Source: a virus. From it: a stretch of DNA of 33,828 nucleotides. The DNA is taken from the IMG/VR virus record IMGVR_UViG_3300025674_000183, positions 1 through 33,828 of that record; one strand, 5' to 3'. Positions 1,287 to 13,452 of this stretch are shown piece after piece (within the stretch, counting starts at the first letter, position 1; every line of letters starts with the position of its first letter). The notes under the pieces were generated by a model. The model was given only the letters and a program-made list of their open reading frames with translations. It did no database searches and had not been told where the DNA came from. The translations under genes and the position numbers were made by a program.

Positions 1287-1287
1287 T

Positions 1288-1356: not shown

Positions 1357-1475
1357 TGGCTAAGGTAAGTTGGATGTGGGGTGGTAAACGTCATTACGGT
1401 ACCCTTATACGTGAAACTAAAACGCACAAGTTTGCTAGAACTGTTAACGGAAAAGTTAAGAAAATTAAAAAATGA
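1356..1475 (+). CDS. 39-residue basic protein
   Basis: The 39-codon frame begins MAKVSWMWGGKRHYGTLIRE and ends in a Lys-rich tail. It starts at the TAATG shared with the 22-residue frame and ends with an ATGA shared with the 87-residue gene at 1472, so it fills the gap exactly. That chain of overlaps supports it as real coding sequence. The Trp-rich N-terminus followed by basic residues could suit nucleic-acid or membrane binding, but no function can be assigned. Confidence 0.55.
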   Translation: MAKVSWMWGGKRHYGTLIRETKTHKFARTVNGKVKKIKK

Positions 1476-1735: not shown

Positions 1736-2017
1736 TCACTCGTTAACATCACTATATCTGTCTAGATATCCACGTAATAACTCACGATAAGCTACTTTAG
1801 TACCCATAGATTGGCGACCATCGTATATGTCATGGTGCCATTTACACAACATAGCTACATTTTCTATGTCAAACTTTCTTGTAGGGTTACCACCCATACC
1901 AATATCTTTTATGTGTGCTAGCTCTAACCATTTATTACTGCCACAATTTGCCCACTCACAGGCGTTTCCTGCTCTTTCTAGGGCTTGTTCTCTGATAGCT
2001 GATATATCTTCCGTCAT
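1736..2017 (-). CDS. HNH endonuclease
   Basis: This 93-residue protein carries an HNH (beta-beta-alpha metal finger) nuclease core. The CxxxxC pair is at residues 20 and 25, LELAHI contains the first His (about 35), Asn is near 53, and MLCKWHH gives Cys 58 and His 61-62. Such small enzymes cut DNA using a bound metal and often serve in phage packaging, recombination or homing. It is the last gene of the leftward block, coupled to the SET gene by ATGA. Because it lies far from the terminase, a packaging partner role is only one option. Free-standing homing nuclease is the alternative. Confidence 0.85.
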   Translation of the reverse strand: MTEDISAIREQALERAGNACEWANCGSNKWLELAHIKDIGMGGNPTRKFDIENVAMLCKWHHDIYDGRQSMGTKVAYRELLRGYLDRYSDVNE

Positions 2018-2331
2018 AGTATTTCTTTCATTTTAGGAGTATATAAATGGTATTTAACTGTTAGTTCTTCATCAGGCATAATGTCTACAAGTGTCTTAAT
2101 ACATTTAAGATTAAAAACATCTTCTAATATACAATTAGGATTTTCACTATGATTGATGAAGCCACCTAATGGTGTACGTACAAACCCGTGCTGAAACTGT
2201 TCATTAGCTACATGAGTAACACCTAATGTTGAGTTAGCACGTATAGGTTCTTTAGCAAATAAACCAACACCATCTATTATTGATTGCCTAATCTCTACTT
2301 CATCAGGTAAAGGTTTATAACTGTCATTCAT
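2014..2331 (-). CDS. SET-domain protein, putative protein-lysine methyltransferase
   Basis: This 105-residue protein is essentially a minimal SET domain. GVGLFA at residues 21-26 is the N-terminal SAM-binding loop motif, FINHSENPNC at 58-67 is the NHxxxPN pseudoknot motif, and DEELTVKYH at 87-95 matches the GEELTxDY motif with its catalytic-site Tyr. SET enzymes transfer methyl groups from S-adenosylmethionine to protein lysines. No substrate-targeting domain or post-SET cysteine cluster is present. It sits between a small zinc-finger-like gene and the HNH gene with ATGA overlaps on both sides. Targets could be host proteins or phage structural proteins; nothing here decides that. Confidence 0.85.
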   Translation of the reverse strand: MNDSYKPLPDEVEIRQSIIDGVGLFAKEPIRANSTLGVTHVANEQFQHGFVRTPLGGFINHSENPNCILEDVFNLKCIKTLVDIMPDEELTVKYHLYTPKMKEIL

Positions 2332-2558
2332 TTAACAATCCTAGTTCCACGCCATCTGCTTTTACGTATAATTTGTTTAGGATTGTCGTCATCAACACAC
2401 GGTTTAGTGTCTATGTGATGTCTGTATTGTTCGTTACATACAATACATCGTACATGTGCATTAAATCCCTCATCAACTTCAGCCATTAAAGCTTGCAAAT
2501 TTAAAGCAGTTTTTCGTGCAGCTTTATCTATTTGTTTTTGTGACACTTGTGAAGTCAT
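2328..2558 (-). CDS. Small putative zinc-binding protein
   Basis: I choose the start MTSQVSQKQI because GGAG lies six bases upstream; a longer frame runs up to 2597. The 76-residue product has an Ala/Lys-rich helical first half and a likely metal site in RCIVCNEQYRHH plus a later Cys (C38, C41, H47/H48, C54). The C-terminus is basic. It overlaps the end of the PD-(D/E)XK gene by 35 bases and the SET gene start by ATGA. Function is unknown; DNA or protein binding through a zinc knuckle is inferred. Confidence 0.65.
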   Translation of the reverse strand: MTSQVSQKQIDKAARKTALNLQALMAEVDEGFNAHVRCIVCNEQYRHHIDTKPCVDDDNPKQIIRKSRWRGTRIVK

Positions 2559-3015
2559 AGTATCTCCTTCCATCATGGTATTGTTTATATTCTGCAATAG
2601 GTATTAGACCTAATAATTCTTCTACTGTATAAAACTTAACAGTACCGTCTTTAAAACAGAACGCTATGTAGTAATCTGTTGCATGTCCTTCTGCATACAT
2701 TGTATGTACAGCACAATAGTGCAACAAGTCTTTAACTTTTACTTTAGGTGAAGACTTTACTTCTACTAACATTTGTTTTTTATCGTTGTATACAAAGTAA
2801 TCGGGGAAAGATTTAAGAAACGGTGACATCTTAGCCCACATTGGTATGGGACTTTCTGCAAAATCTGCATTGTCATTAAGATGTAACTGCCGATACTTCA
2901 TATTCTTATCCGTACAGTATTTTTCAAACACATTTTCTGCAAAAGGTATATAGTTTTTTATACGCTCAGCATCATTGAGTTTGTTATGTTCGCCTTGTGG
3001 ACTAACTTCTTTCAT
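2524..3015 (-). CDS. PD-(D/E)XK nuclease
   Basis: In this 163-residue protein the central block KSFPDYFVYNDKKQMLVEVK shows the PD-(D/E)XK nuclease signature: Pro-Asp at 71-72 and Glu-Val-Lys at 85-87, separated by a beta hairpin. This fold cuts DNA with a divalent metal held by the two acidic residues, with the Lys in catalysis. Helical segments flank the core. Likely roles are recombination or end processing with the Rad52-like protein of the same block, or degradation of host DNA. It is joined to its upstream neighbour by ATGA. The motif is clear; the exact family is not. Confidence 0.75.
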   Translation of the reverse strand: MKEVSPQGEHNKLNDAERIKNYIPFAENVFEKYCTDKNMKYRQLHLNDNADFAESPIPMWAKMSPFLKSFPDYFVYNDKKQMLVEVKSSPKVKVKDLLHYCAVHTMYAEGHATDYYIAFCFKDGTVKFYTVEELLGLIPIAEYKQYHDGRRYYDFTSVTKTNR

Positions 3016-3254
3016 TGTAAATTAGCTCTTTTCAGCCACATACTACCGTCTTTGTAAGGTGTAGATAAAACATTTACTAATCTAATAAACTGTTCTAAGT
3101 GTTCATATGTGTACTTTGTTATTGTATCTAAAGAAGTATCTTTACCATATTTGTCCCAGTCATCTACAACATCTTCTAGTTTGTAAACATCGGTAGAAAA
3201 TATTTCATGGTACTTTCCATCTTCTTCATACTTCAACATGTATATTTCAATCAT
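3012..3254 (-). CDS. Hypothetical protein, acidic
   Basis: The likely start is MIEIYMLKYEEDGKYHEIFS, because its ATG comes one base after the upstream gene's TAA; a longer frame extends to 3290. The 80-residue product alternates charged and hydrophobic residues (DVYKLEDVVDDWDKYGKD, then a helical HLEQFIRLVNVL). There are no cysteine pairs, membrane segments or known motifs. Tight coupling to both neighbours marks it as part of the leftward operon. I do not recognise it. Confidence 0.65.
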   Translation of the reverse strand: MIEIYMLKYEEDGKYHEIFSTDVYKLEDVVDDWDKYGKDTSLDTITKYTYEHLEQFIRLVNVLSTPYKDGSMWLKRANLQ

Positions 3255-3255
3255 T

Positions 3256-3531
3256 TTAAAACGGTGATTGAAAATCCATAGAACCTTCACGTGCTATGTC
3301 ATCTCTTATTTCTGCACGCTCTACTTCATGTTGCCATGTTTTTACTTTATGTAGAAACAATTTGTACATCTGTTTCTTCACATTGTATGTAGCCATCTGT
3401 GCATCTGTCCAAAACGCAATGCCGTTAGCTTTAGTTTTCTCTAAATGTTCTAACTCTAGTTGCGCTAGTTCTTCCATTTTATCTAATACATCTTCACCAC
3501 TAGGGTAAAAATCAAATGTAAGTTCACTCAT
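3256..3531 (-). CDS. Hypothetical helical protein
   Basis: This 91-residue protein has a long charged helical stretch (about residues 14-75, from DKMEELAQLELEHLEKTKAN) likely to form a coiled coil. It has no metal site or membrane segment. The start overlaps the upstream stop as ATGA and the stop lies one base before the next ATG. Its position between nuclease and lysozyme-like genes gives no firm clue. A small adaptor or inhibitor of a host protein would fit an early phage gene, but that is speculation. Confidence 0.65.
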   Translation of the reverse strand: MSELTFDFYPSGEDVLDKMEELAQLELEHLEKTKANGIAFWTDAQMATYNVKKQMYKLFLHKVKTWQHEVERAEIRDDIAREGSMDFQSPF

Positions 3532-3728
3532 TCTTCTTCTGCCTTTCTACGATTGTCTAATATTGTTTGTTCAAAACCTTGTAAGAACTCAAACAATAGT
3601 TTGCTTACTTTTTCTGGGTCTGCTTCTTGTAATACATTATCTTGAACAACACGTTGTCCACCACAAGCATTAGCTAGCTGTATCGCCCATACTTTTATTT
3701 CTTTTGGGTCGGTAAATATATTCGGCAT
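3528..3728 (-). CDS. Hypothetical small helical protein
   Basis: I choose the start MPNIFTDPKEIKVWAIQLAN, which has purine-rich sequence with GGAG upstream; the frame is open to 3770. The 66-residue product is mainly helical and acidic at the end (FEFLQGFEQTILDNRRKAEEE). It overlaps the C-terminal coding part of the lysozyme-like gene by 59 bases, an unusually long overlap for this genome, so either this start or the lysozyme end may differ in relatives. No family recognised. Confidence 0.55.
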   Translation of the reverse strand: MPNIFTDPKEIKVWAIQLANACGGQRVVQDNVLQEADPEKVSKLLFEFLQGFEQTILDNRRKAEEE

Positions 3729-4128
3729 TTTTCCAACACTCCTTACTAGAGTTCCAATGGTGCCATCCATCGTTATAGACTAGCCAACTAGCCACACGTG
3801 TAGACACCACAGGATTAACTCTGTTATCTTTTATACTTAACTTGTTTGAAAGCCAATCCCATGTATGGTTATTGAATTGCCACAGTCCTAAATCATTAGA
3901 ACCGTTTTTGTTTTTGTCATTGTATGCAGTATATCTACCACTACTTTCGCAATAGATTACTGTCATAGCTTGTACAATATCTTCTTCTTTGAAGTACGTA
4001 CTGACTGTCGGTATCCACTCCTCAACATGTTGTACTTTCTCTTTTACATCACGACAAATTACATATTTTTCTAGTGTGTCTGTACTTATTGGGAAAGTAA
4101 GAACACAACTTATAAGTAATTCAATCAT
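3670..4128 (-). CDS. Lysozyme-like muramidase or lytic transglycosylase, possible endolysin
   Basis: This 152-residue protein begins with a hydrophobic stretch (MIELLISCVLTFPI) that may be a signal or anchor segment. The core IVQAMTVIYCESSGRYTAYN followed by GLWQFN resembles the lysozyme-like transglycosylase fold: Glu 61 fits the catalytic acid and GLWQF at 81-85 fits the GLMQI-type motif. Such enzymes cleave the glycan of peptidoglycan. It is the only cell-wall enzyme recognised here, so it is the best endolysin candidate, although it lies in the leftward block and not beside the holin-like gene. The signal-like N-terminus would suit export through the host Sec system. A DNA-entry enzyme is the alternative. 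Confidence 0.7.
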   Translation of the reverse strand: MIELLISCVLTFPISTDTLEKYVICRDVKEKVQHVEEWIPTVSTYFKEEDIVQAMTVIYCESSGRYTAYNDKNKNGSNDLGLWQFNNHTWDWLSNKLSIKDNRVNPVVSTRVASWLVYNDGWHHWNSSKECWKNAEYIYRPKRNKSMGDTAS

Positions 4129-4526
4129 TCTTCTTCGTATAGTGCAGGTTTCTTATACTTCCTACCACTTATGTGTAAGCTGTATGCAACACAAAATTCA
4201 TCTAAGTCTTTTATGTTAAATATAACAAGTCCTTCACTTGTCCCATCGGGTTTAACTACAAACACAAAGGGTCTTTCATCGTTTGGCAAGTTGGTATCTG
4301 ATTGCTCTTTAGCTTTCAGATACCTATTCCATAACGTTTGAACTTGCTTACCTGCTTTGACTTCACATCTAATGAATGCTTCTGCCCATCCTTCTTCATG
4401 TACACGTAAGTGATACAGACTAGGTTCGGGCATACGTAACTGACGTAACGCTTCTAATTGTTTCCGTCTACCTTTACGTTTATTCAGCATACCTTGACGT
4501 TTATAGTCAACTTTTTTATTAGGCAC
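4125..4526 (-). CDS. Putative small PD-(D/E)XK-like nuclease or resolvase-like protein
   Basis: This 133-residue protein has a very basic N-terminus (NKRKGRRKQLEALRQL) followed by AFIRCEVKAGKQVQTLWNRY and a strand-rich end (FVFVVKPDGTSEGLVIFN). The strand-E-x-K block at 55-57 resembles the second half of a PD-(D/E)XK active site as in Holliday-junction-resolvase-like enzymes. The first acidic residue is less obvious, perhaps one of the Glu residues at 44-49. Its start lies inside the end of the Rad52-like gene (8-base overlap), which suits a recombination partner. The nuclease call is moderate. Confidence 0.5.
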   Translation of the reverse strand: MPNKKVDYKRQGMLNKRKGRRKQLEALRQLRMPEPSLYHLRVHEEGWAEAFIRCEVKAGKQVQTLWNRYLKAKEQSDTNLPNDERPFVFVVKPDGTSEGLVIFNIKDLDEFCVAYSLHISGRKYKKPALYEEE

Positions 4527-5559
4527 TTACTCCCCATTCGGGTGGTAAGTCTGATGAGTTTAACCACCATGATTTTGGAAACTTACCTGTGTGTGCAGGG
4601 CATTCATCAACTGCTTTTGCAGCACACTTAAAGTCTGGTGACTTCTCGGTTAGTTTACTTTTTCTGTTATCAAACACCTTGCCTGTACAAAAAGGACATT
4701 TAAGGTCTGTCTTGATATCATTTTGTTGTTGTGTTTTTTCCACAACACCTCCTAATATTCCTGATACCTTAGTTATAAGGTCATCATCGTCATCTACTTT
4801 ATTAGCAGTAGAAGATAATCCAAGCTCTATTTTAGCTACATAATCATCTATCTGCTTATTACTCCATTGAGATTTATCGGGATACTTCATGACTTTTTTG
4901 TAGTTATCTGCTAAGTCTAAAGCAAACACTTGTGTCTTTTCGTCATACCCCTCCATAATCCTGTCAATGGTGTCATCAATAAGTTTGACTTTACCATTAT
5001 CGGTATGTGTAGAGGTATCGTTAAAAGGTGCTTCCCCTTCTGATACTTCCTCAATAGGTTTGATTGGTACAGGTTCGGACTTGTTCTCTTTTCTACGCAT
5101 GTCAACCTTTGTCACCATAACATTGTCGGTGTCTGGGTCACTCATAGTAGCTAGAGGTTGTGCATTATGTTCTTCCTCAGTTGTATCTGAACCCGACCAT
5201 AGCTCAACACCTAAACCAAAACGCATACAAGCACGTTTAAAAGCGTCACTCTCTGCATCTTTTAGATTTGTACCATCGTTGTGTTTAGGACTGTCTAGTT
5301 TAAATGTGTCAACGTCTCCGAAGCCATCATAACTACCCATGTCCTCAATAGTTATAGTACCTTTAGCACCAACTATTCTTTTCTCACCTTTATGTGTACC
5401 GTATATAGGTTCACATGTCCATGAGTATTTTACTTCGCTATCACGTAGTCTTTCTACGTAGATACTGTGTGGAACGTAGTCGCCAAACTTCCCTGCAGGT
5501 GCTTTTTTAACAACTGACTTGGGAAATGGGGACAACAATTTAACTGGCTTTGTAGCCAT
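4519..5559 (-). CDS. Rad52-like single-strand annealing protein
   Basis: The start MATKPVKLLSPFPK is chosen because AAAGGAG precedes it by seven bases; the open frame extends to 5598 into hairpin A. In the 346-residue product, residues 25-125 contain YVERLRDS, a Gly-rich loop (GSYDGFGD) and DAESDAFKRACMRFGLGVELW at about 101-121, the hallmark of Rad52/DdrA-type annealing proteins that pair single-stranded DNA. An acidic, low-complexity linker follows. The C-terminus has a likely zinc finger (C288, C291, C312, C320, H323). It probably supports recombination-dependent replication or repair together with the nucleases encoded downstream. Confidence 0.8.
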   Translation of the reverse strand: MATKPVKLLSPFPKSVVKKAPAGKFGDYVPHSIYVERLRDSEVKYSWTCEPIYGTHKGEKRIVGAKGTITIEDMGSYDGFGDVDTFKLDSPKHNDGTNLKDAESDAFKRACMRFGLGVELWSGSDTTEEEHNAQPLATMSDPDTDNVMVTKVDMRRKENKSEPVPIKPIEEVSEGEAPFNDTSTHTDNGKVKLIDDTIDRIMEGYDEKTQVFALDLADNYKKVMKYPDKSQWSNKQIDDYVAKIELGLSSTANKVDDDDDLITKVSGILGGVVEKTQQQNDIKTDLKCPFCTGKVFDNRKSKLTEKSPDFKCAAKAVDECPAHTGKFPKSWWLNSSDLPPEWGVSA

Positions 5560-5575
5560 CACGTTCTCCTTTCTA

Positions 5576-5619
5576 TCATTATTTAATTTCCTTAACAAGT
5601 TAAGGAATTAAATTAATGA
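5576..5619 (-). repeat. Intergenic bulged hairpin, copy A
   Basis: The near-perfect inverted repeat has arms ATTTAATTTCCTTAAC and GTTAAGGAATTAAAT, with one extra T in the left arm and a further outer extension TCATTA/TTAATGA. Relative to the other copies the central CCCC/GGGG pairs are replaced by TTCC/GGAA on both sides, which keeps pairing. It lies just upstream of the ribosome binding site of the Rad52-like gene and downstream of the 49-residue gene. Confidence 0.8.
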
Positions 5620-5626
5620 TTTATAT

Positions 5627-5776
5627 TTATTTGCTTAAGCGTGTAACCCCACGTGTTAATTTACTGAAGTGAATTGCTCCATCTTCTGCACGATATATTA
5701 AAACAGGTGTATCACCTGAGTATTCTATACCAATCAACTCATGGTTTGTTACTTCTTTGACATTATTACTTGCCAT
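5627..5776 (-). CDS. 49-residue small protein, possibly expressed from a leaderless mRNA
   Basis: The frame reads MASNNVKEVTNHELIGIEYS onward and ends TRGVTRLSK followed by TAA. It has the look of a small beta-rich domain (YSGDTPVLIYRAEDGAIHFS). It fills the gap between the metallophosphoesterase stop and hairpin A. There is no Shine-Dalgarno close to the ATG; instead a TATAAT box ends nine bases upstream, so transcription may begin almost at the start codon. It begins with the same MASN as the metallophosphoesterase. Function unknown. Confidence 0.6.
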   Translation of the reverse strand: MASNNVKEVTNHELIGIEYSGDTPVLIYRAEDGAIHFSKLTRGVTRLSK

Positions 5777-5785
5777 ATACTATAT

Positions 5786-5815
5786 ATTATACCTATACAT
5801 CTTCTAAATTTACAA
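5786..5815 (-). promoter_or_regulatory. Leftward sigma70-type promoter
   Basis: On the minus strand TTGTAA (5815-5810) is followed by an 18-base spacer and TATAAT (5791-5786). The -10 box lies just past the stop codon of the metallophosphoesterase gene and the spacer runs back into its last codons. The expected start point is within a few bases of the ATG at 5776. It would drive the 49-residue, Rad52-like and downstream genes. The -35 TTGTAA is the same as in the rightward promoter at 13453. Confidence 0.6.
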
Positions 5816-6866
5816 GGTATTCAGCAGTTACTCCATGCTTTGGCTTACAAAACAGTAAGTACTGACATGGTCTACCCATACTTGCAAGTTGTTCTAACGC
5901 ATATGTATTATAACTTTCCGTACTTCCATTAATCCATAGTCGTACATCGTTTATGTATTGTGTGTTTGGTGTATGAAAATGACCTGCAATAGCATAGTTA
6001 AAGTCGGGCATAAGTCCGTTACTAGCTAGTGTTTTCCAACCCATTATCTTCTTACCAAATCCATACCACGGGAAACCACCAAAACCTCTGACGTTATCTC
6101 CGTGCCATAGAAAGAACTTACATTTCTCTCCTAAGTCTGCAATGTCAAACCAATGGTTGTCTGCATTTACACTATCAGGTATAGAAAATGTAATTCGTTT
6201 TTCGCTATCGTATATCATGTCTAATATCTTGCCTAACATTCTGTCGGCATTGCTATCAGGGTGGTAGTTTTTTCTTGAACGTCCACCCAAGTGTCCATGA
6301 TTACCGATTACCCAATGAACTTGCACTTCCTCAAAGTTAGCTAATAGAATGTCAAAGAATTGTGTCAAAATTCTAGGTGCATCAACAGTCACTTGACTGT
6401 ACAATGAACTGTCTATTAGATGTTCTTGTCCGGGAAATATAAGCTCTCCCTCTACTATGTCACCAACACAAAACACAGCAATTTTATTTACATTGTGTGC
6501 TTGTCGTTGGATATTAGCTAAGTCAACTATCTTATGTGCATATCGTACAACACGTTCTTCAGCTATTTCTGTATTGTATGTAGGTGTAATTTTTGCAAGT
6601 TGCACATCAGACAATACGGCACAAGCTATTTCTTCGCCAACTTTTTTCTTCTTGGCTAACTTGGGCTTAGGAACATTACCTTTTCGGTAAGTTGTGATAC
6701 TTGTTTTGACTGCTTCGTACACAGCTTCAACAAGTTTTTCAGTTTTATTCTTAGCTTTATCAAGCTGTCGTAACAACTTGATGTTAGTATCTTCTAGCTC
6801 TTTTACTCGCTCGCTCTCAGCATCAGCTAATAATCTAGCTAGTTCTTTATCTTTATTACTTGCCAT
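5793..6866 (-). CDS. Calcineurin-like metallophosphoesterase with N-terminal coiled coil
   Basis: The chosen start MASNKDKELARLLADAESER overlaps the upstream gene by 11 bases; the frame is open to 6899. In the 357-residue product, residues 5-55 are a charged coiled coil. The metal-binding motifs follow in family order: LSDVQ (85-89), GDIVEG (135-140), GNHGH (188-192), HGD (255-257) and GHFHTP (295-300). These bind two metals and hydrolyse phosphoesters. The usual DxH of the first motif reads DVQ, a variant to note. Possible substrates are nucleic acid ends, nucleotides or phosphoproteins. Coupling to a small HTH-like protein suggests that the two act together. Confidence 0.85.
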   Translation of the reverse strand: MASNKDKELARLLADAESERVKELEDTNIKLLRQLDKAKNKTEKLVEAVYEAVKTSITTYRKGNVPKPKLAKKKKVGEEIACAVLSDVQLAKITPTYNTEIAEERVVRYAHKIVDLANIQRQAHNVNKIAVFCVGDIVEGELIFPGQEHLIDSSLYSQVTVDAPRILTQFFDILLANFEEVQVHWVIGNHGHLGGRSRKNYHPDSNADRMLGKILDMIYDSEKRITFSIPDSVNADNHWFDIADLGEKCKFFLWHGDNVRGFGGFPWYGFGKKIMGWKTLASNGLMPDFNYAIAGHFHTPNTQYINDVRLWINGSTESYNTYALEQLASMGRPCQYLLFCKPKHGVTAEYLVNLEDV

Positions 6867-7092
6867 CAGACACCTTCTTGATGTACTTACGCATGGCACT
6901 ATCGGATATTTCTATATCAAACTCACGTTTTAATATGTTTATTATACGATAAGGTTTCACATCAACTCCGTTACGTACTCTCTCAATAAGTGTGTCCCAG
7001 AACTCACGTGCTTCTGGTGTAATTTTTCGTTCAACGAAATTATCTTTTACACCGTGTTCGGCTTCTTCTAGTAGTTTATCTATTTCTTTCAT
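6856..7092 (-). CDS. Small HTH-like DNA-binding protein, likely leaderless
   Basis: This 78-residue protein has an acidic helical N-terminus and a C-terminal part (residues 47-74, PYRIINILKREFDIEISDSA then MRKYIKK) with the spacing of a helix-turn-helix. No ribosome binding site precedes the ATG. A TATAAT box ends seven bases upstream, so the mRNA probably starts at or next to the start codon. It overlaps the metallophosphoesterase start by 11 bases. A regulator or a DNA-targeting partner of that enzyme is plausible. Confidence 0.65.
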   Translation of the reverse strand: MKEIDKLLEEAEHGVKDNFVERKITPEAREFWDTLIERVRNGVDVKPYRIINILKREFDIEISDSAMRKYIKKVSDGK

Positions 7093-7099
7093 GTAAATA

Positions 7100-7127
7100 A
7101 TTATACATGAATAAAAAATAAATACAA
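7100..7127 (-). promoter_or_regulatory. Leftward sigma70-type promoter
   Basis: On the minus strand TTGTAT (7127-7122), a 16-base T-rich spacer and TATAAT (7105-7100) are seen. The ATG of the HTH-like gene is at 7092, so the expected start site lies at or within a base or two of the start codon. It lies downstream, in the transcription sense, of the structured region 7141-7314, which would let this segment be expressed separately from the AAA/VWA genes. Confidence 0.6.
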
Positions 7128-7140
7128 TAAACTAAAAGAA

Positions 7141-7314
7141 AGCTAGAGATAAGTGTTCATGAAGGTAACAAAACCTATGACGAAGATATCCTGAAAGAAC
7201 AGTCATAGGTAAAAGACCTGTCGTAAGTTCTCTTTACGCTCTATTCTTATCTCTGTGCTTACTGTACATAGGGAAAGGAAACCCACGTATCACTTGCGTG
7301 AAACGTAAGCACTA
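7141..7314 (-). ncRNA. Structured non-coding region, two multi-helix domains
   Basis: No gene is present between 7093 and 7317. Domain 1 (7255-7312) is closed by GTGCTTAC/GTAAGCAC and contains TCAC/GTGA around a loop that reads GCAA (a GNRA tetraloop) on the minus strand, plus a GGG/CCC hairpin at 7271-7284. Domain 2 (7145-7254) is closed by AGAGATAAG/CTTATCTCT and contains the perfect 9-base helix ACCTATGAC/GTCATAGGT (7173-7181 with 7202-7210) and CGTAA/TTACG (7222-7238). It starts six bases after the VWA stop in the leftward direction. It could be a 3-prime UTR element, a processed RNA or an attenuator. I do not recognise a known RNA family. Confidence 0.5.
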
Positions 7315-7317
7315 CCT

Positions 7318-8796
7318 TTACCTTACTACATTTAATTTTCTAGCGAAAGACTTAACCTCATCTATGTCTGCTAGTCGCATGATGTTATATTTATTACATG
7401 CTTCCATACATTGTTGTAGATTTTGCTTGCCTGTCCCATTAAATCCTACAACTTGCATATCAGATACCCACAATCGTCTAGGTGTTTGTTTGCCTAACCA
7501 TTCAAGTGCAGGTAAGTCAATGTAATTACCACCACCAGTATGCTCGTGTAAGTATTCATCATTAACACGTCTACCATTTCTAGCAATAATACGTATGTCA
7601 CCTAATTTCTTATTGTTGTTCCAACCATAATAGTTGTACATTGCAATAGTCACAGCAGGTACTTCATTCATGACATCTAGTATGTCTTGACCGTCAAAGT
7701 TCATAGAACCACTAGCGTCAATCAGGATAGTTCCACCGTATGTATTATGTTTACGTGTGAATATCTTTCTATCTACTGTGTATCTGTGAATTTTTCTAGG
7801 TGCAACACCTTTGTCTTTAGCAACATTTGTGTAACCTGTACGAATTTTGTTACTCATGTTGATAGTTAACGCAGGTTTATGTAATGTATAATCTGCCCAT
7901 GAAGCTTCACTATTATCATAACTGTAAATGATTTCGTTATAGTCATTCTTGTTACGGTCTTTAAGCATAGATATATTCTTAGGTGAACTAAGTTCAGCTT
8001 CTTCATAAGCATCCTCTAAATCACCTGTTTCTTCTAATGCTTCCTCAAGTTTTTCTTTGTCATCATCAGACAAACGCACATCGTCTTGTGGTTTTCCGTC
8101 AAACAAATCAAATAACTCAGACAACTCTACTGCTAGTTTTTTAACTCTAGCCCATGCAGGTTTATGTGTTATACCTGCAGATTTAGTACTTGTATGTACC
8201 ATGCGTAGATGAAAGTAAGATATTTTATCCATAGCAAACTCTAAATCTTGAACACGGCTGTGTTTAAGAGTATGACTATTTATCTCATCTGTAATAGCTT
8301 TTACAAAAGAAACATACTCATAGCCATACTCGTTATATTTTATACGTGTATAACTTGAAGCAAAATTACTTTTGTACCATATTTTTTCAATGAAATAAAT
8401 ACAAGCTAATCCATACTTGACTAAGTCTGTAATACTACCTTTCTCTACAAGTTGTCTTGTGAAGGCGTCAACCTCATCTAAACATGTATGTGGTGCATTC
8501 ATAGGAATACCTGCATACGTTAGTCTGTGATTGACACGTATTTCTTCTAGCAAATGTATAGCTTCTTCATGAACGCCTTTGGGAATTTTACCAAAGCTTT
8601 TAGGTGACCACTTGACATGACCTAACTCATGTCGTCTGATTACACGTCCGTGATTTACACCACACTTGTGACACTCGTCATCTAGAGGTACGTACATTTT
8701 CCTATTGGTCATGTCCGTACGAGGTTGTTTAGTATCTTCGTATACTTCCCAATCTCTTTCTCCTGTGACTATTTCGGGGAATGGTCTGTGTCGCAT
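7318..8796 (-). CDS. Metallopeptidase-like and VWA-domain protein, partner of the AAA+ ATPase
   Basis: In this 492-residue protein the N-terminal part has CHKC (42-45), then RRHELGH (54-60), a zinc-protease HExxH motif, followed by EEIRVNH (84-90) that could give the third ligand. An acidic linker (about 235-270) precedes a von Willebrand A domain with MIDAS DASGS (360-364), TGGGNYIDLPAL (420-431) and VSD (444-446). This layout resembles the putative metallopeptidase plus VWA-like proteins and CobT-like partners of MoxR/CobS ATPases, which couple ATP hydrolysis to remodelling of a target. It starts at a TAATG overlap with the ATPase gene. Target and protease activity are unproven. Confidence 0.8.
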   Translation of the reverse strand: MRHRPFPEIVTGERDWEVYEDTKQPRTDMTNRKMYVPLDDECHKCGVNHGRVIRRHELGHVKWSPKSFGKIPKGVHEEAIHLLEEIRVNHRLTYAGIPMNAPHTCLDEVDAFTRQLVEKGSITDLVKYGLACIYFIEKIWYKSNFASSYTRIKYNEYGYEYVSFVKAITDEINSHTLKHSRVQDLEFAMDKISYFHLRMVHTSTKSAGITHKPAWARVKKLAVELSELFDLFDGKPQDDVRLSDDDKEKLEEALEETGDLEDAYEEAELSSPKNISMLKDRNKNDYNEIIYSYDNSEASWADYTLHKPALTINMSNKIRTGYTNVAKDKGVAPRKIHRYTVDRKIFTRKHNTYGGTILIDASGSMNFDGQDILDVMNEVPAVTIAMYNYYGWNNNKKLGDIRIIARNGRRVNDEYLHEHTGGGNYIDLPALEWLGKQTPRRLWVSDMQVVGFNGTGKQNLQQCMEACNKYNIMRLADIDEVKSFARKLNVVR

Positions 8797-9515
8797 TATT
8801 CTGCTTCACTTAACTTGATAGCGTCTAATAGTTCTTCTGCTCTATCGCCAAAGACTACTAACCCTGCTGTATCAATGTCTAACCCTTGCTCTTGTAACTT
8901 GAAGAACTCATCCCATTTACGAATAGAGATACGTTCACCCTCATCAGTAGATAAAGATGTATCACTAATAGCTTGATGCCACGCTTTTGGAAATTTTTCC
9001 AATGCTTTAGGATGTATCTCATCTATGTGTATAGCAACAGGGAACCTGTCTTTGAGTGCTTGTGGTAAGCTCTCTGGGTCCGCGTTAGACGTAGCTATCA
9101 CAGTAAACCCTTCGCTTGGACGAACAGTTTCTTTTTCTTTGTTGTTGAGTGTGATACCTGCAATATCTTTGTCATCTAATATGGCATGTAAGAATGTCAT
9201 AGCGTCTGGTGAAGCGTGGTCTATCTCATTGATAACCAATCTACCACCGTTACGCCATGCTTGTACAGCAATACCGTCACTCCATTCAAACTGTTGATTT
9301 TCACCTATCTGATAAAAACCTTGTAAGTCTGCACTTGTACTTTCTTCGGTCATGACTAACTGAAATACGTTAGCGTCACCGTTTATGTTCAATGGTGCAT
9401 TTTGTTTTACAGCAGAGTAAGTCTTGCCTGTACCCGGAGGTCCGTACAAAAGTACTCTATCTGATTTTCCTACTACGTAGGACACTAAGTCCCAACACGT
9501 TTGTTTTTTGCTCAT
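8796..9515 (-). CDS. MoxR/CobS-like AAA+ ATPase
   Basis: This 239-residue single AAA+ module has Walker A GPPGTGKT (25-32), Walker B LVINEIDHA (93-101), sensor 1 ATSNAD (141-146) and an arginine-finger-like LKDRF (154-158). The sequence TSADLQGFYQIGENQQFEWS between the Walker motifs is typical of MoxR and CobS relatives, which work as hexameric remodelling motors with VWA partners. The gene is coupled to the metallopeptidase/VWA gene by TAATG, and TTGGAG precedes its ATG. Phage genes of this kind are often labelled cobS, but there is no cobalamin pathway here, so a protein-remodelling role is more likely. Confidence 0.85.
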   Translation of the reverse strand: MSKKQTCWDLVSYVVGKSDRVLLYGPPGTGKTYSAVKQNAPLNINGDANVFQLVMTEESTSADLQGFYQIGENQQFEWSDGIAVQAWRNGGRLVINEIDHASPDAMTFLHAILDDKDIAGITLNNKEKETVRPSEGFTVIATSNADPESLPQALKDRFPVAIHIDEIHPKALEKFPKAWHQAISDTSLSTDEGERISIRKWDEFFKLQEQGLDIDTAGLVVFGDRAEELLDAIKLSEAE

Positions 9516-9518
9516 TTG

Positions 9519-9806
9519 TTATTCTCCAATCGGTACGAACCTAATGTATAAGTCCACACCCTCGTTGTTTTTTCTTTGCTTACACTCAAAAGAACCTTTG
9601 TCTTTCAAGTGACTTATGTTTCGTTGTTGCATACTCCGTATGTTTCCGACAACACCACTACTCCACTTAGGTAAAGTAGCGACTACGTACCACATGTTCG
9701 GGTTATTTAACAACACCTTAACTTTGTCGTCTGACAAAATTTTAGGTTGCTTTCCACCTTTGCGTATTGGTGGTGGCTCTTGTCTAGCCATACCGTTAGG
9801 TAACAT
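9519..9806 (-). CDS. Hypothetical basic protein ahead of the AAA+/VWA pair
   Basis: The 95-residue frame starts MLPNGMARQEPPPIRKGGKQ with AAAGGGGG seven bases upstream. A basic Pro-rich N-terminus leads to a compact region (VKVLLNNPNMWYVVATLPKW, then IRSMQQRNISHLKDKGSFEC and LYIRFVPIGE) that could be a small winged or SH3-like domain. The three-base gap to the ATPase gene suggests they are co-expressed. It may be a substrate or adaptor of the ATPase; this is inference from position only. Confidence 0.65.
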   Translation of the reverse strand: MLPNGMARQEPPPIRKGGKQPKILSDDKVKVLLNNPNMWYVVATLPKWSSGVVGNIRSMQQRNISHLKDKGSFECKQRKNNEGVDLYIRFVPIGE

Positions 9807-9835
9807 AAGTTACCCCCTTTCTGATACTTGCGTAT

Positions 9836-9900
9836 CTCACAGTCCAGATTTGGGCATGAAACAAACAATACTTTCGTATATATTGCATCTGAACTGTAAG
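9836..9900 (-). ncRNA. Structured leader hairpin with GNRA loop
   Basis: The arms CTCACAGTCCAGAT (9836-9849) and ATCTGAACTGTAAG (9887-9900) pair over 14 positions on the minus-strand RNA with two G-U pairs, which would be A-C mismatches on the plus strand. Inside, ATAC/GTAT closes a GAAA tetraloop when read on the minus strand. It precedes the 95-residue gene in the direction of transcription, ending about 30 bases before its ATG, so it may control translation of that gene and the AAA+/VWA genes. Confidence 0.5.
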
Positions 9901-9911
9901 CTACGTACGTA

Positions 9912-10020
9912 TAGATAGCTTGTAACACACATCAACTTGTAAATTATCCTATACCTTTACAAGTGCTAGTAGATTTTCTATATAGGTCAAATCGTACCTC
10001 TATGTGCTACAAGCTACCTA
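9912..10020 (-). ncRNA. Large arm-bounded RNA element, unit 1 (cloverleaf-like)
   Basis: In minus-strand RNA, the arm TAGGTAGCTTGTAGCACATA (10020-10001) pairs over all 20 bases with TGTGTGTTACAAGCTATCTA (9931-9912), with three G-U pairs that would be A-C mismatches on the other strand. Within it are AGGT/ACCT (9984-9999), TAGA/TCTA (9970-9980) and the perfect 9-bp hairpin ACTTGTAAA/TTTACAAGT (9935-9943 with 9956-9964). The layout is a four-helix junction. It is not a tRNA: it has no T-arm consensus and no anticodon arm. Confidence 0.6.
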
Positions 10021-10088
10021 CATAACTTGGGTTTACTCTTTACAGAGGCAAGGTTCAGTAAGTTCAAATTTCCCCTCGCTAACCCTTA

Positions 10089-10171
10089 TAGATAGCTTGT
10101 AACACACAGTTGGTGGCTTACACAATTAAGTCTTAGCAGTTTACCCAATGCTATGTGCTACAAGCTACCTA
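10089..10171 (-). ncRNA. Large arm-bounded RNA element, unit 2
   Basis: Both 20-base arms (10171-10152 and 10108-10089 on the minus strand) are identical to those of unit 1, again giving a 20-bp helix with three G-U pairs. The interior is shorter and unrelated, with CTTA/TAAG (about 10117-10130) as the clearest small hairpin and a possible TTGG/CCAA pairing. Sixty-eight bases separate the units. A third fragment TAGATAGCT at about 10196-10204 matches nine bases of one arm. Arm identity with interior divergence suggests either selection on the helix or duplication followed by interior replacement. Confidence 0.6.
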
Positions 10172-10208
10172 CTGTACATAAAGGGGTAATGTACGTAGAT
10201 AGCTATAT

Positions 10209-10439
10209 TTATTGCGTTTCTTTTGTGTGTTTACGCCACACTTTTTCGTTTACAACTACGGTGTTTAAGTCCGTAAACGTCTTTTGCTTGGGTGATTTAC
10301 TATCACCGTATGTAATAGTTGTCTTGCCGAATGCACGACTTACTGCTATTACAGGTACAAACTTATTCCCTTTCGTAAGTAATTCATCGGTCTCTTTAAC
10401 GTCTTTAGCGTAACGAGACCAACCATGTTTGTGAATCAT
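10209..10439 (-). CDS. Hypothetical small protein
   Basis: This 76-residue protein starts MIHKHGWSRYAKDVKETDEL with AAAGGGA six bases before the ATG, which follows hairpin B by about 12 bases. The middle (FVPVIAVSRAFGKTTITYGD then LNTVVVNEKVW) looks like a small beta-rich domain. GKTT is not in a P-loop context, so I do not call it an ATP site. It is followed by the roughly 400-base structured gap. Function unknown. Confidence 0.65.
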   Translation of the reverse strand: MIHKHGWSRYAKDVKETDELLTKGNKFVPVIAVSRAFGKTTITYGDSKSPKQKTFTDLNTVVVNEKVWRKHTKETQ

Positions 10440-10451
10440 AATTTCCCTTTC

Positions 10452-10499
10452 TAATTATATTTAATCCCCTTAACAAGTTAAGGGGTTAAATATTAATTA
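10452..10499 (-). repeat. Intergenic bulged hairpin, copy B
   Basis: The arms TTTAATCCCCTTAAC and GTTAAGGGGTTAAA have outer pairing extending through TAATTA on both sides, with the same unpaired T as in the other copies. It lies between the 79-residue gene and the 76-residue gene, directly before the ribosome binding site of the latter. Confidence 0.85.
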
Positions 10500-10503
10500 C
10501 TTT

Positions 10504-10743
10504 TCAATACTCGTACCCTGCGTCTGATTGGTCTGCCATGATTTGCTGTGTTTCTGTCATACCTGATGGGGGTTCATCGTATTCGCCATGATGTCGCATT
10601 ATTTCACGATGTTCTTGTTCTTGTACTTTTGCGTCTGCAACAGCGTCATCTAAACAATCTTCGTGAAACCAATCACCGTACGCTTTTATAATAGAATTTT
10701 GGTCATCTGTACTACTACAAAGTTCACATTCTTTAATAGCCAT
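10504..10743 (-). CDS. Small putative zinc-binding protein
   Basis: This 79-residue acidic protein has a treble-clef-like metal site near the start: CELC (C6, C9) and WFHEDC (H27, C30). The rest is charged and Gln/His/Met-rich with no fold I recognise. The start codon overlaps the preceding membrane-protein gene's stop (TAATG). The stop is followed by hairpin B. A protein-binding zinc domain is plausible, as in other small early phage proteins that target host factors. Confidence 0.65.
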   Translation of the reverse strand: MAIKECELCSSTDDQNSIIKAYGDWFHEDCLDDAVADAKVQEQEHREIMRHHGEYDEPPSGMTETQQIMADQSDAGYEY

Positions 10744-10895
10744 TATTCTTCCTTTCGTATAAGTGAGAGGAACTCATCACTAAGTCCCTCTCGTGTTTTT
10801 TTAACGTAAATAACAACGTTAACTATGTATTCTATTGTTAATAAGACAATAGGAATTAACATTATTACTATAAATAACCCTTGCCAACTGTTCAT
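10743..10895 (-). CDS. 50-residue small membrane protein
   Basis: The frame reads MNSWQGLFIVIMLIPIVLLT onward and ends KTREGLSDEFLSLIRKEE. Residues 6-31 form one strong transmembrane segment, followed by a basic then acidic tail, so the C-terminus is probably cytoplasmic. It is linked to both neighbours by overlaps (ATGA upstream, TAATG downstream), which is good evidence that it is coding. It is too short for most gene finders. Its role could be membrane anchoring or superinfection exclusion; neither is demonstrated. Confidence 0.65.
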   Translation of the reverse strand: MNSWQGLFIVIMLIPIVLLTIEYIVNVVIYVKKTREGLSDEFLSLIRKEE

Positions 10896-11281
10896 GACAC
10901 TTCATCCCATGAAAATTCAGACCAAACTCCGTCTAGTGTCATTACATTTATGAGATACAATCCCCAATCATCAGCCACAATCGGCATATCGTTGGCTGTT
11001 GGTAGCTCATCAGTAAATTCACGTGCAAAATCAAAGTTAAAAACACTCGGATTATGTCCGTCTTTACCCATATAAGCACACAAAATAGGGAACACTCTCT
11101 CTATTTCTTGCCTAAATTGGGGGTTCATATTTCTATCAGCGTCATTTTCCATATACATACGTTGCATTTTACTGACTGTTTGTTCCACATTAGAACCCAT
11201 CCAATGTGTGTAGATTACAGGTGAATAACTGTAACCTCTTTCGTCTTGACTGTACAATAGTACAGTTGCTCTGTCACCCAC
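10892..11281 (-). CDS. Hypothetical protein, 129 residues
   Basis: I choose the GTG at 11281 (product begins MGDRATVLLYSQDERGYSYS) because GAGG lies six bases upstream and it overlaps the zinc-ribbon gene by eight bases. An upstream GTG at 11308 would give 138 residues but lacks a ribosome site. The protein is rich in acidic and aromatic residues (ADDWGLYLINVMTLDGVWSE). No metal site, membrane segment or known motif is visible. The stop overlaps the small membrane-protein start as ATGA. Confidence 0.6.
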   Translation of the reverse strand: MGDRATVLLYSQDERGYSYSPVIYTHWMGSNVEQTVSKMQRMYMENDADRNMNPQFRQEIERVFPILCAYMGKDGHNPSVFNFDFAREFTDELPTANDMPIVADDWGLYLINVMTLDGVWSEFSWDEVS

Positions 11282-11453
11282 GTGACACCTCGCTTTCTGT
11301 TTTCTCACTTGTCAAGTATCGCTTTGAACTTGACTTTTTTACAGTACTATACCCACATTGTGGACAAAATACCATTTCTAACACGTTACTTTTCGCATTT
11401 GCGTAAATACCTTGATGTCGGTAATTCGCTTGACGACAGTTATCGCATAACAT
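11274..11453 (-). CDS. 59-residue zinc-ribbon protein
   Basis: The frame starts MLCDNCRQANYRHQGIYANA and continues EMVFCPQCGYSTVKK. The pairs CxxC at 3-6 and CPQC at 30-33 make a classic zinc ribbon, followed by a Ser/Lys-rich tail. TTGGAG precedes the ATG, and hairpin C lies just before that. It overlaps the next gene by eight bases. Zinc ribbons of this size often bind RNA polymerase, DNA or other proteins; the target is unknown. Confidence 0.65.
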   Translation of the reverse strand: MLCDNCRQANYRHQGIYANAKSNVLEMVFCPQCGYSTVKKSSSKRYLTSEKTESEVSRG

Positions 11454-11466
11454 TTACGCTCCAATC

Positions 11467-11509
11467 TAATTAATTAATCCCCTTAATAAATTAAGGGGTT
11501 AATTAATTA
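11467..11509 (-). repeat. Intergenic bulged hairpin, copy C
   Basis: The arms TAATTAATTAATCCCCTTAA and TTAAGGGGTTAATTAATTA pair with one unpaired T. The outer stem differs from copies B and D on both sides in a way that keeps pairing. It sits between the 75-residue gene's stop (11513) and the zinc-ribbon gene's ribosome binding site. Confidence 0.85.
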
Positions 11510-11512
11510 CGT

Positions 11513-11740
11513 TTAGCTAACTTCTCCGAAATAATTTTGTGCAACAAGCACAATTTCATTTAGAATTTTTTCTACATCGCTATGATGTAGACCGTTTTGT
11601 TCAAGTACTTCCTTGACATCATCTGTAAAAGATTCGTCGTTTAATGTACTTAAGTTTGCAATCATAAGCTCTTGTAAACGGGCTTTTTTTTGCTCGTCTG
11701 TCATGTTTGCTACCTGTTCAGGCGTTAGTGGTTCTACCAT
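11513..11740 (-). CDS. Hypothetical acidic helical protein
   Basis: This 75-residue protein reads MVEPLTPEQVANMTDEQKKA, then an acidic helical body (SFTDDVKEVLEQNGLHHSDV and EIVLVAQNYFGEVS). TTGGAG lies six bases before the ATG, following hairpin D. The LTPEQVANMTDEQK start resembles short interaction helices. There is no metal site. It is flanked by hairpins C and D, so it may be a single-gene segment of the operon. Function unknown. Confidence 0.65.
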   Translation of the reverse strand: MVEPLTPEQVANMTDEQKKARLQELMIANLSTLNDESFTDDVKEVLEQNGLHHSDVEKILNEIVLVAQNYFGEVS

Positions 11741-11753
11741 TTTTACTCCAATC

Positions 11754-11795
11754 TAATTACTTAATCCCCTTACTCTGTAAGGGGTTAAGTAATTA
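11754..11795 (-). repeat. Intergenic bulged hairpin, copy D
   Basis: The arms TAATTACTTAATCCCCTTAC and GTAAGGGGTTAAGTAATTA differ from copy C by matched changes (ACTTAA with TTAAGT) that keep the stem. The unpaired T is at the same place as in the other copies. It lies about 13 bases before the start of the 75-residue gene. Confidence 0.85.
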
Positions 11796-11802
11796 CTTGA
11801 TA

Positions 11803-11846
11803 CTCGCATAAGTATCCTACACACCCCCATTACGAGGGTGTGCGAG
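11803..11846 (-). terminator. GC-rich hairpin after the 108-residue gene, possible terminator or processing site
   Basis: The helix CACACCC/GGGTGTG (11820-11826 with 11836-11842) is followed by CTCGCA (11803-11808), which can extend it with TGCGAG. It begins eight bases after the stop of the 108-residue gene in the leftward direction. No clear U-run follows, so intrinsic termination is uncertain; an mRNA end-protecting hairpin is equally possible. Confidence 0.4.
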
Positions 11847-11853
11847 ATAATTA

Positions 11854-12180
11854 CTACGCTTTAACGAGTGCTTTTTTCTTAGCCCAAGCTTTTTTACCTC
11901 TATCAGAACGGATTTTAGTCAATCCCTCAGGTGTAATGTGCTTGAGTGTAGCGTCTGCACCCAACAATTTAACCATATCTTGTGCGTCTGTGTAATTTTT
12001 AGTCATAGGACTAACTGTATTTTCAGCAGTTAATTCGCTTATGTCATTTACACTCACGTTGGATACAAAGTATTCTTTACTCTCATTGTCTTTGACAATG
12101 TAGTATCCCTTGATTGGCGTATTATCGTCCTTACGAACGTTATATACGGTTGTTGTTGTTGTATTTATCAATTTGCTCAT
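11854..12180 (-). CDS. Hypothetical protein with basic C-terminus
   Basis: This 108-residue protein starts MSKLINTTTTTVYNVRKDDN with AAGGAG seven bases before the ATG. The first 60 residues look beta-rich (VYNVRKDDNTPIKGYYIVKD, then EYFVSNVSV). The end (KIRSDRGKKAWAKKKALVKA) is a basic helix suited to nucleic-acid binding. It has its own leader hairpin at 12215-12244 and a GC-rich hairpin after its stop, so it may be a separately regulated mRNA unit. Not recognised. Confidence 0.65.
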   Translation of the reverse strand: MSKLINTTTTTVYNVRKDDNTPIKGYYIVKDNESKEYFVSNVSVNDISELTAENTVSPMTKNYTDAQDMVKLLGADATLKHITPEGLTKIRSDRGKKAWAKKKALVKA

Positions 12181-12214
12181 TTCTGAACTCCTTTTCGTAT
12201 GTGTTATGTGTACT

Positions 12215-12244
12215 TTGACGCTCTCACATACAAGAGAACGTCAA
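12215..12244 (-). promoter_or_regulatory. Leader hairpin upstream of the 108-residue gene
   Basis: On minus-strand RNA TTGACGTTCTC pairs with GAGAGCGTCAA around an eight-base loop, 11 positions with one G-U pair; on the plus strand that position would be an A-C mismatch. It lies 35 bases before the start codon. A role in mRNA stability or attenuation is inferred. A 19-codon frame at 12246-12305 (MNPLWWSDEVDIQYLTYCV) lies just upstream but has no ribosome binding site. Confidence 0.45.
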
Positions 12245-12326
12245 CCTACACACAGTAGGTGAGATATTGGATATCTACTTCATCGCTCCACCACAATGGG
12301 TTCATGCTTTGTTTTTTCAAGGGGTT

Positions 12327-12362
12327 GTATTTAATCCCCTTACTCCGTAAGGGGTTAAATAC
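12327..12362 (-). repeat. Intergenic bulged hairpin, copy E
   Basis: The arms GTATTTAATCCCCTTAC and GTAAGGGGTTAAATAC enclose the loop TCC, with the shared unpaired T. Unlike other copies it is not directly before a convincing ribosome binding site: the next clear gene start is about 150 bases on, at 12180. The right arm includes the last base of the 62-residue gene's stop codon. Confidence 0.85.
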
Positions 12363-12550
12363 TAACCGTTCAGCGCCAAATCGTAGGAACATTCAAGCCC
12401 ACAAGCCCAACGGGTGTCACCCCACGGGTTCATGTCCCATTCTGTCCAACCAATGTTAATCTTTTGATTAACAGAGTAGTCAATTTTGACTTCACAGACG
12501 GCACAATAAGTATTTGGGACATAGTCCCAAGCGTCAAGTAATTCAGTCAT
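12362..12550 (-). CDS. Small putative zinc-binding protein, Trp-rich
   Basis: I choose the start MTELLDAWDYVPNTYCAVCE, preceded by AAAGGA at a good distance; an upstream in-frame ATG exists at 12565. The 62-residue product has two Cys pairs, CAVC (16, 19) and CGLEC (50, 54), a treble-clef-like arrangement. The region between them is Trp/Asn-rich (NIGWTEWDMNPWGDTRW). It lies between hairpins F and E. Probably a small zinc-stabilised binding protein; target unknown. Confidence 0.6.
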   Translation of the reverse strand: MTELLDAWDYVPNTYCAVCEVKIDYSVNQKINIGWTEWDMNPWGDTRWACGLECSYDLALNG

Positions 12551-12565
12551 ATCGTCCTTTCTCAT

Positions 12566-12606
12566 AGGGATTTAATCCCCTTACTACGTAAGGGGTTAAA
12601 TACCCT
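12566..12606 (-). repeat. Intergenic bulged hairpin, copy F
   Basis: The arms GGGATTTAATCCCCTTAC and GTAAGGGGTTAAATACCC enclose a three-base loop. The outer GGG/CCC extension is unique to this copy and pairs on both sides. It lies about 15 bases before the start codon of the 62-residue gene. Confidence 0.85.
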
Positions 12607-12616
12607 AACTTCTCGG

Positions 12617-12856
12617 CTACTTCCAATTTTTATGGTTGCGAACAACTTTTCCGTTAGTAAGAACTTCTTGCACAAAGTCTTTTATTTGCGTGTCCGTGTA
12701 ATCTTCGTTGTAAAAACCCATAAAACCGTTTAATTTTGTTCGTACACACTCTATTACGTCTGTACTGTCGGTCGTATTACGTGGGTGGTATCCGTCATGT
12801 AGGTCACGACACCATATGACGTTTTCCTGCAAACTAACATTTTGCATTAATTTCAT
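12617..12856 (-). CDS. Hypothetical protein, first gene of the leftward block
   Basis: I choose the start MKLMQNVSLQENVIWCRDLH because AGGAG precedes it by six bases; an upstream TTG at 12871 overlaps that site. The 79-residue product has scattered Cys and His (WCRDLHDGYHPRN, VIECVRTK) without a clear paired site, and a helical end (YTDTQIKDFVQEVLTNGKVV). As the gene nearest the divergent control region it is probably the first expressed. Its function is unknown. Confidence 0.6.
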   Translation of the reverse strand: MKLMQNVSLQENVIWCRDLHDGYHPRNTTDSTDVIECVRTKLNGFMGFYNEDYTDTQIKDFVQEVLTNGKVVRNHKNWK

Positions 12857-12881
12857 TTCGGCTCCTCTCAACAGGACTAAT

Positions 12882-12918
12882 GTATTTAATCCCCTTACCT
12901 TAGTAAGGGGTTAAATAC
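12882..12918 (-). repeat. Intergenic bulged hairpin, copy G
   Basis: The arms GTATTTAATCCCCTTAC and GTAAGGGGTTAAATAC enclose the loop CTTA, with the common unpaired T. It precedes the first leftward gene by about 25 bases and borders the control region. It would lie in the leader of the whole leftward transcript. Confidence 0.85.
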
Positions 12919-13452
12919 TATTACTTCCCCCTAAGACACAGCTCTCCCCTACTACATATTGTGGTTGTTGCCGATGACACTACATCTAGTGCATACCATA
13001 TCTAGTGGTGTTTCCCCCTACTACCTTCCAATTGTCTAAGAGTTCATATCTGTTTAGAAGAAGTTAACTTAACTACATATAGGGGTATTTAATTAACGTA
13101 CTACCATATCTAGTATGTATATTCTGTAACTTAGAATCATAAGACACTTCACAGTAACTATATATGTGCATACACCTACACGATACGTGTGTATCTATGT
13201 GCGTATGACCTACACATGTTAATGTGCTACCCCCCTGTATATATATGTAAGTAGAAAAAAATATTCTAGTAAAACGTTGTAACTAAAGGGGGTTTTGGAT
13301 ATAGCGGGCTATTAAGGGAAGTCCGCATGATAAAAAGTTTTCGTTAATCCTTGAGTATCTGGTTTGCGTTTCTACGTTATCGTTTGACCGATTCCAGACT
13401 TTCTGTATCCCGATTACAACTTCACTTGTAATTAATTAATGGCTTTCTATGT
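12919..13452. promoter_or_regulatory. Divergent non-coding control region
   Basis: No gene is seen here. The region holds an exact 13-base direct repeat TACCATATCTAGT at 12994-13006 and 13102-13114, with a related ACATCTAGT at 12982-12990. It also holds repeated CCCCTACTAC (12946-12955 and 13015-13024) with a related TTCCCCCTA at 12925. Small palindromes GATAC/GTATC and CACAT/ATGTG lie near 13181-13226, and GCGGGCT/AGTCCGC (one G-T) at about 13304-13326. The repeats look like operator or promoter elements for the leftward block. A weak rightward TTGTAA-17-TATAGC pair is at 13277-13305. Confidence 0.5.

Follow-up and report, generated by a model that had tools for sequence, protein, structure and literature searches.

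The 33.8 kb IMG/VR virus record IMGVR_UViG_3300025674_000183, which we analyzed whole and call the window, carries seven bulged hairpins (A to G) between the genes of its leftward early block. We establish by direct observation the presence, strand, position and covariation of these hairpins, and the retention of a hairpin where the sequence has turned over completely. Selection on the RNA fold is strongly supported, well beyond the window, because the arms covary and because a hairpin stands ahead of the gene for a single-stranded DNA (ssDNA) annealing protein in all 49 relatives despite unrelated stems. A preliminary description of the window had already claimed selection on structure, to which the fixed strand also lends support, and the claim survived our search amongst relatives for missing hairpins and for unpaired changes in the stems. 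We read the hairpins as cis-acting RNA signals that set off one gene from the next in the early polycistronic mRNA and are most likely cut, probably by the host RNase III, a reading to which we assign a probability of roughly 45%.

In the mRNA sense, the hairpins have the form UUAACCCCUUA-N5/6-UAAGGGG-A-UUAA, that is, a lower stem, an unpaired A on the 3' arm, an upper stem of 8 base pairs (bp) and a loop of 3-4 nucleotides (nt). The preliminary description reported one unpaired T next to the left arm. One base is indeed always unpaired; the downstream genes are all on the minus strand, and therefore in the RNA this base is an A on the 3' arm, rarely a C in relatives. The core was described as common to all copies; it is literally so in six of the seven, hairpin A having TTCC/GGAA as its core. 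The loops, described as variable, are held within narrow limits, as the spacing between the arms is just 17 or 18 and leaves a loop of 3-4 nt. The changes matched on both sides are as described for A, for D (outer stem TTACTTAA/TTAAGTAA) and for F (an extra GGG/CCC below). A strict architecture of at least 7 bp, a 1-nt bulge on the 3' arm, at least 6 bp and a loop of 3-6 occurs eight times on the minus strand (A-G and one unrelated late-block hairpin), never on the plus strand, and in none of 60 shuffled windows. The covariance model that we built from 25 distinct copies matches exactly A-G in the window, and all seven hairpins are located where the preliminary description placed them; in the relatives searched, as in the window, the gene strand gives the stronger match in every record. 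The model has no match in more distant relatives, in T7 (700-7000) or in mycobacteriophage Anaya, and the Rfam covariance models have no match at E<=1 in the window. As had been noted, none of the stems is directly followed by a run of U, and 0/7 hairpins appear in the terminator-like list of the window, which speaks against intrinsic terminators.

Close relatives provide the covariation. When IMG/VR is scanned for the bulged core with 2-12 bases permitted between the arms (spacing 14-24), 34 stretches match, many of them with several copies. The arm spacing is 17 or 18 in every match, and the core without the bulge has 0 matches in IMG/VR. Amongst 84,980 species genomes, the bulged core has four matches, none with the 17/18 spacing, which rules out a host chromosomal repeat. 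The copies precede different genes, and their stems include matched variants such as CCCCATAC/GTATGGGG, CCCCCTAC/GTAGGGGG, CCCTTTTAA/TTAAAAGGG and TTTTAA/TTAAAA. For the 25 distinct copies, 96.4% of the cells are paired, and 10 of the 16 pairs have changes on both sides. None of 500 shuffles reaches the observed level, a count that is not a probability because the copies are related and were partly picked by structure; sliding the partner by one base breaks the pairing. The evidence for structure is this control, together with the number of double changes. The CTGTTCT variants, which MAFFT misaligns when they are mixed in, are left out of these statistics.

The gene behind hairpin A, which encodes a Rad52-like ssDNA-annealing protein (phrog_3290; 4522-5559, minus strand), is recognizable in distant relatives, where we picked the sites by the protein and not by the hairpin. 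Just ahead of the Shine-Dalgarno sequence (SD), a hairpin is found in 49/49 distinct upstream regions of the orthologs, with a median z of -4.4 and 90% of the values below -2 (after thinning, the median is -4.2 and 94% are below -2). A few of the 49 hairpins are weak, e.g. in L185/L186 and L192/L214. The corresponding values for control upstream regions from the same loci (terminase, portal, exonuclease and another early gene) are -0.2 to -0.6. The stems have no common sequence between lineages, with TTCCTTAA/TTAAGGAA in the window versus CTGTTCTTA/TAAGAACAG, GTCTTTCA/TGAAAGAC, TTATCTTCGTGT/ACACGAAGATAA and GTATTTTTATGTA/TACATAAAAATAC in others. Within groups, there are 9 covarying pairs versus 5 with breaks. 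The unpaired A on the 3' arm is retained in many of these relatives and lost in the close relative L179; the hairpins of more distant relatives are interrupted in other ways or not at all. Since the stems differ wholly between lineages and the bulge is lost or altered in some, the presence of a hairpin is what is kept; the bulge is strong in the window clade and not universal. Other lineages (L132, L139, L143, L115, L120) have hairpins before the SD with a variable lower stem and a common apical module, e.g. TCTGCACTTACGCAATC and TCTCTTKATGAGTTC, and these are lineage-specific hairpin families. The apical part is common within a genome in L132, L139, L115, L120, L157 and L060.

The hairpins sit at gene boundaries. 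For 61 distinct sites, the helix usually starts 0-15 nt past the stop codon (51-59 nt for a few) and ends 12-29 nt before the start codon, with the bulge 25-38 nt before it; in several clades, 3-5 nt separate the helix end from the SD. In the window, 6/7 early genes with upstream room have a hairpin versus 1/5 late genes. In relatives, a hairpin precedes about half of the early genes whose upstream gap is at least 35 nt; the figures for the window and the relatives come from a home-made gene caller and are rough. Six of the seven hairpins precede a start codon, as the preliminary description stated, at 13-25 nt. On the minus strand, these are hairpin A (5579-5616, its outer stem extending to about 5573-5622), upstream of the annealing-protein gene; hairpin B (10457-10494), ahead of a gene of 76 amino acids (aa) at 10209-10439, with an ortholog upstream-region z of -4.6; hairpin C (11470-11507), ahead of a 59-aa gene with cysteine pairs (11274-11453) and with an ortholog upstream-region z of -3.2; hairpin D (11757-11793), ahead of a 75-aa gene (11513-11740); hairpin F (12568-12604), ahead of a 62-aa gene (12362-12550); and hairpin G (12882-12919), ahead of the first gene of the early block, of 79 aa (12617-12856). 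The genes are all on the same minus strand.

The seventh, hairpin E (12327-12363, minus strand), precedes a conserved structured RNA leader. The leader (12195-12319, minus strand) is about 125 nt long, begins with GAAAAAACAAAGCATGA, and lies between hairpin E and a 108-aa gene (11854-12180, minus strand). Amongst relatives, the leader is conserved, and the open reading frame directly behind hairpin E is not (3-40 codons). In the leader, 9 of the 30 predicted pairs have changed on both sides, and it has no match in Rfam. Hairpin E therefore divides a gene from a structured leader instead of serving a ribosome site. A boundary role is favoured over control of the ribosome site because E precedes a conserved leader and no conserved gene. 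In the slot of hairpin G, relatives have at least six unrelated first genes behind the same hairpin. Since the genes there are swapped freely, a side effect of the hairpin repeats may be to promote homologous exchange. The region 12617-12871 (minus strand) and its counterparts in relatives form a cassette-exchange hotspot that adjoins a divergent promoter region.

We propose that these hairpins process the mRNA. The early block, which we infer to be a single transcript, would be bound by the host RNase III at the two-part hairpins (a lower stem of 6-11 bp, an unpaired base on the 3' arm, an upper stem of 8-9 bp and a loop of 3-5 nt) and cut at or near the asymmetry. After the cut, the upstream message would keep the hairpin at its 3' end, and the new 5' end would lie about 25-38 nt before the next start codon or, at hairpin E, before the structured leader. 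The purpose may be to make the units separately stable and separately translated. We infer the cutting, its enzyme and its benefit. Processing by a double-strand endonuclease fits most facts because of the tolerance to sequence, the need for a helix, the 3' asymmetry, the likeness of the copies within a genome, and the position at boundaries, which includes a site before the first gene (G) and one before a leader RNA (E). Among the three roles originally proposed, RNase processing is the best fit and translational control a possible one; the evidence goes against protein binding to a specific (DNA) sequence.

T7 is a textbook case of early genes separated by structured processing signals, and to our knowledge such signals are little known outside a few model phages. 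The T7 early RNase III signals (R0.3, R0.5, R1, R1.1, R1.3) are likewise multiple intergenic two-part hairpins dividing an early polycistronic mRNA; they precede the SD of the following gene and consist of an upper stem of about 9 bp and a lower stem, separated by an asymmetric break. The T7 copies are also alike within the genome, and one of the sites stands before the first gene (0.3 in T7, as does G here). When we fold the T7 leaders of 0.3, 0.5, 1 and 1.3, the upper stems have about 9 bp or more and end about 35-40 nt before the start, a distance similar to that of our hairpins, and most have an asymmetric break and a lower stem. The two-part hairpin, the asymmetry on the 3' side and the short loop occur together in the window clade and just partly in more distant relatives. 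T7 belongs to an unrelated phage lineage, and its signals have no sequence relation to the window hairpins. They have an internal loop where we find a single unpaired base; our stems are shorter, and the cutting of our hairpins is putative. Because the covariance model has no match in T7, we say that the hairpins may work like the T7 signals and do not count them as members. A second case comes from Streptomyces, an actinobacterium, in which RNase III has a site at an intergenic hairpin directly before pnp (PMC5872136). The rpsO-pnp hairpin also stands directly before the downstream gene, is cleaved by RNase III there, and belongs to what is likely the same host phylum; it differs in being one chromosomal site in a housekeeping operon and not a repeated family.

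Several observations weigh against processing by RNase III. By the standard of canonical RNase III sites, stems of 14-20 bp are short; lineages differ in upper stem and loop, and some relatives have perfect stems of 15-17 bp or large loops with no single-base bulge. Within the window clade, the sequence is conserved beyond the need of a purely structural substrate. Phage-encoded RNase III is absent from 20 related records.

The closest rival is a passive stabilizer, in which uncut RNA elements guard the mRNA ends, by shielding the 5' end and blocking 3' exonucleases, or keep the ribosome site insulated from the sequence upstream. We consider it possible and on balance unlikely. Passive elements account for the sequence tolerance and for the position beside the stop codon and the SD, and the predicted openness of the SD and start is 0.517 with the native hairpin versus 0.459 when the hairpin letters are shuffled. 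However, deleting the hairpin barely alters the predicted SD openness (0.495, p 0.14), which makes insulation of the ribosome site a weak proposal. Passive elements also leave unexplained the 1-nt 3' asymmetry kept in the window clade, with the bulge-free core never found in IMG/VR.

Translational operators come next and are again unlikely. An RNA-binding protein of the phage or of the host would recognize the bulged hairpin by the SD and control many early genes together, as modeled by T4 RegA, gp32 and the coat proteins of single-stranded RNA phages. The short distance between helix end and SD in several clades agrees with an operator, and a single bulged purine is a known recognition feature of coat-protein hairpins. 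The hairpin sequence or its apical module is common within a genome and different between lineages, as a co-evolving binder predicts; the T7 RNase III sites are also alike within one genome, and therefore this likeness needs no phage binder. Hairpin A is unlike its sister copies in sequence and wholly replaced between lineages, no conserved start lies behind hairpin E, and our analysis yielded no candidate binder. A strict binder is made less likely by hairpin E and by the freely replaced sequence ahead of the annealing-protein gene. The MS2, PP7 and Qbeta coat-protein operators and those of T4 gp32 and RegA share with our hairpins an RNA hairpin or structure near the ribosome site, and some carry a bulged purine. 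Coat-protein operators carry their bulge on the 5' arm and overlap the region of the start codon; our hairpins carry it on the 3' arm and lie 12-29 nt upstream of the start codon. A more elaborate possibility, which we judge improbable, is a lineage-specific "hairpin code" in which many early genes would be preceded by a variable lower stem with an apical module, and a rapidly evolving RNA-binding factor of the phage would read it and set early expression; sequence and factor would switch together while fold and position stay.

Sites acting in the DNA, such as operators or promoters, are very improbable. They would resemble the inverted repeats of Cluster K mycobacteriophages known as extended start-associated sequences (ESAS; the start-associated sequence itself is SAS), which have the same layout, with an inverted repeat by the SD of some non-structural genes and a consensus that differs by subcluster, and which also belong to actinobacteriophages (PMC3203893, PMC11373665). 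Hairpin B moreover overlaps a sigma-70-like match. The compensated changes, the sequence turnover and the variable arm spacing argue against DNA sites, and promoter-like matches in the region are not enriched (21 versus 28.9 expected). The SAS motif is not above chance, as the 13-bp SAS GGGATAGGAGCCC, which in Cluster K stands beside the start, has 2 matches with 3 mismatches versus 1.5 expected. The ESAS have 17-bp imperfect arms with a spacer and SigA-like promoters, and their arms do not covary (PMC3203893, PMC11373665); according to the ESAS authors, the departures in them do not support pairing. The window hairpins covary without a SAS motif or promoter enrichment, and the ESAS are ruled out as the same element since the arms of the window hairpins keep pairing and those of the ESAS do not. 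Folding upstream of the Anaya SAS sites gives a mixed result, with a strong hairpin at a few and none at most. Least probable of all are ssDNA hairpins for recombination or mobility (attC-like cassette junctions, or ends of the repetitive extragenic palindrome (REP) or IS200 type) that would shuffle early gene cassettes: the exchanged first genes in the G slot and the phage's own ssDNA-annealing protein gene are in their favour, but tyrosine recombinase (PF00589) and Y1 transposase (PF01797) are absent from the 20 related records (a host enzyme is possible), the hairpins are fixed before orthologous genes and always gene-oriented, and the sites within one genome need not match in sequence. Homologous exchange at the repeats could nonetheless swap cassettes as a by-product.

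Our results suggest, for these marine phages, a folded cutting or protecting signal that is known from T7 and not described for them. A large uncultured group, probably infecting Actinobacteria, keeps a hairpin before the same gene in every examined relative while its sequence is replaced, and this turnover under a kept fold amounts to a clean natural experiment in which mRNA is selected for structure alone. If the proposed cleavage is true, the hairpins are an independent case of phages organizing early expression by double-strand RNA processing, and they provide a simple way to recognize the boundaries of early genes in metagenomic phages.

The window has a GC content of 35.5%. Its rightward block carries the terminase large subunit (phrog_38) and the major head protein (phrog_1328), and the leftward block an exonuclease, the ssDNA-annealing protein, a MoxR-type AAA protein and many small unknown proteins. 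No near relative was matched among sequenced phages; by terminase, portal and capsid, the closest isolates are actinobacteriophages, at merely 22-34% identity. Because of these isolates and the GC content, a marine actinobacterium is the likely host (compare group G13 of PMC3861242). A related terminase is present in 38 IMG/VR loci, and the terminase of a 68%-identical lineage used as query matches 305 stretches. WhiB is absent from the 20 related records.

The A-G family is confined to the leftward block, as the preliminary description had it; the one clear exception among bulged hairpins, not related to this family, is found in the late block (29032-29068, plus strand). It is strong, has a bulged T on the 5' arm, follows the major head gene and precedes the SD of the next late gene. 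In L082, a hairpin of different sequence precedes a gene similar to the one behind it. At 7318-9515 (minus strand), the MoxR-type AAA ATPase gene is followed by a 492-aa gene of unknown function (phrog_33218), a pair that is unusual in a phage early operon; from the gene order, the second is possibly a VWA-type partner of the ATPase. The non-coding region 7093-7317 (minus strand), between the 492-aa gene (itself downstream of the AAA ATPase) and a 78-aa gene, has possible paired segments. At 9807-10208 (minus strand), about 400 nt without an obvious gene include repeated GATAGCTTGTAACACAC / GTGCTACAAGCTACCTAC units able to pair, a possible structured or regulatory RNA.

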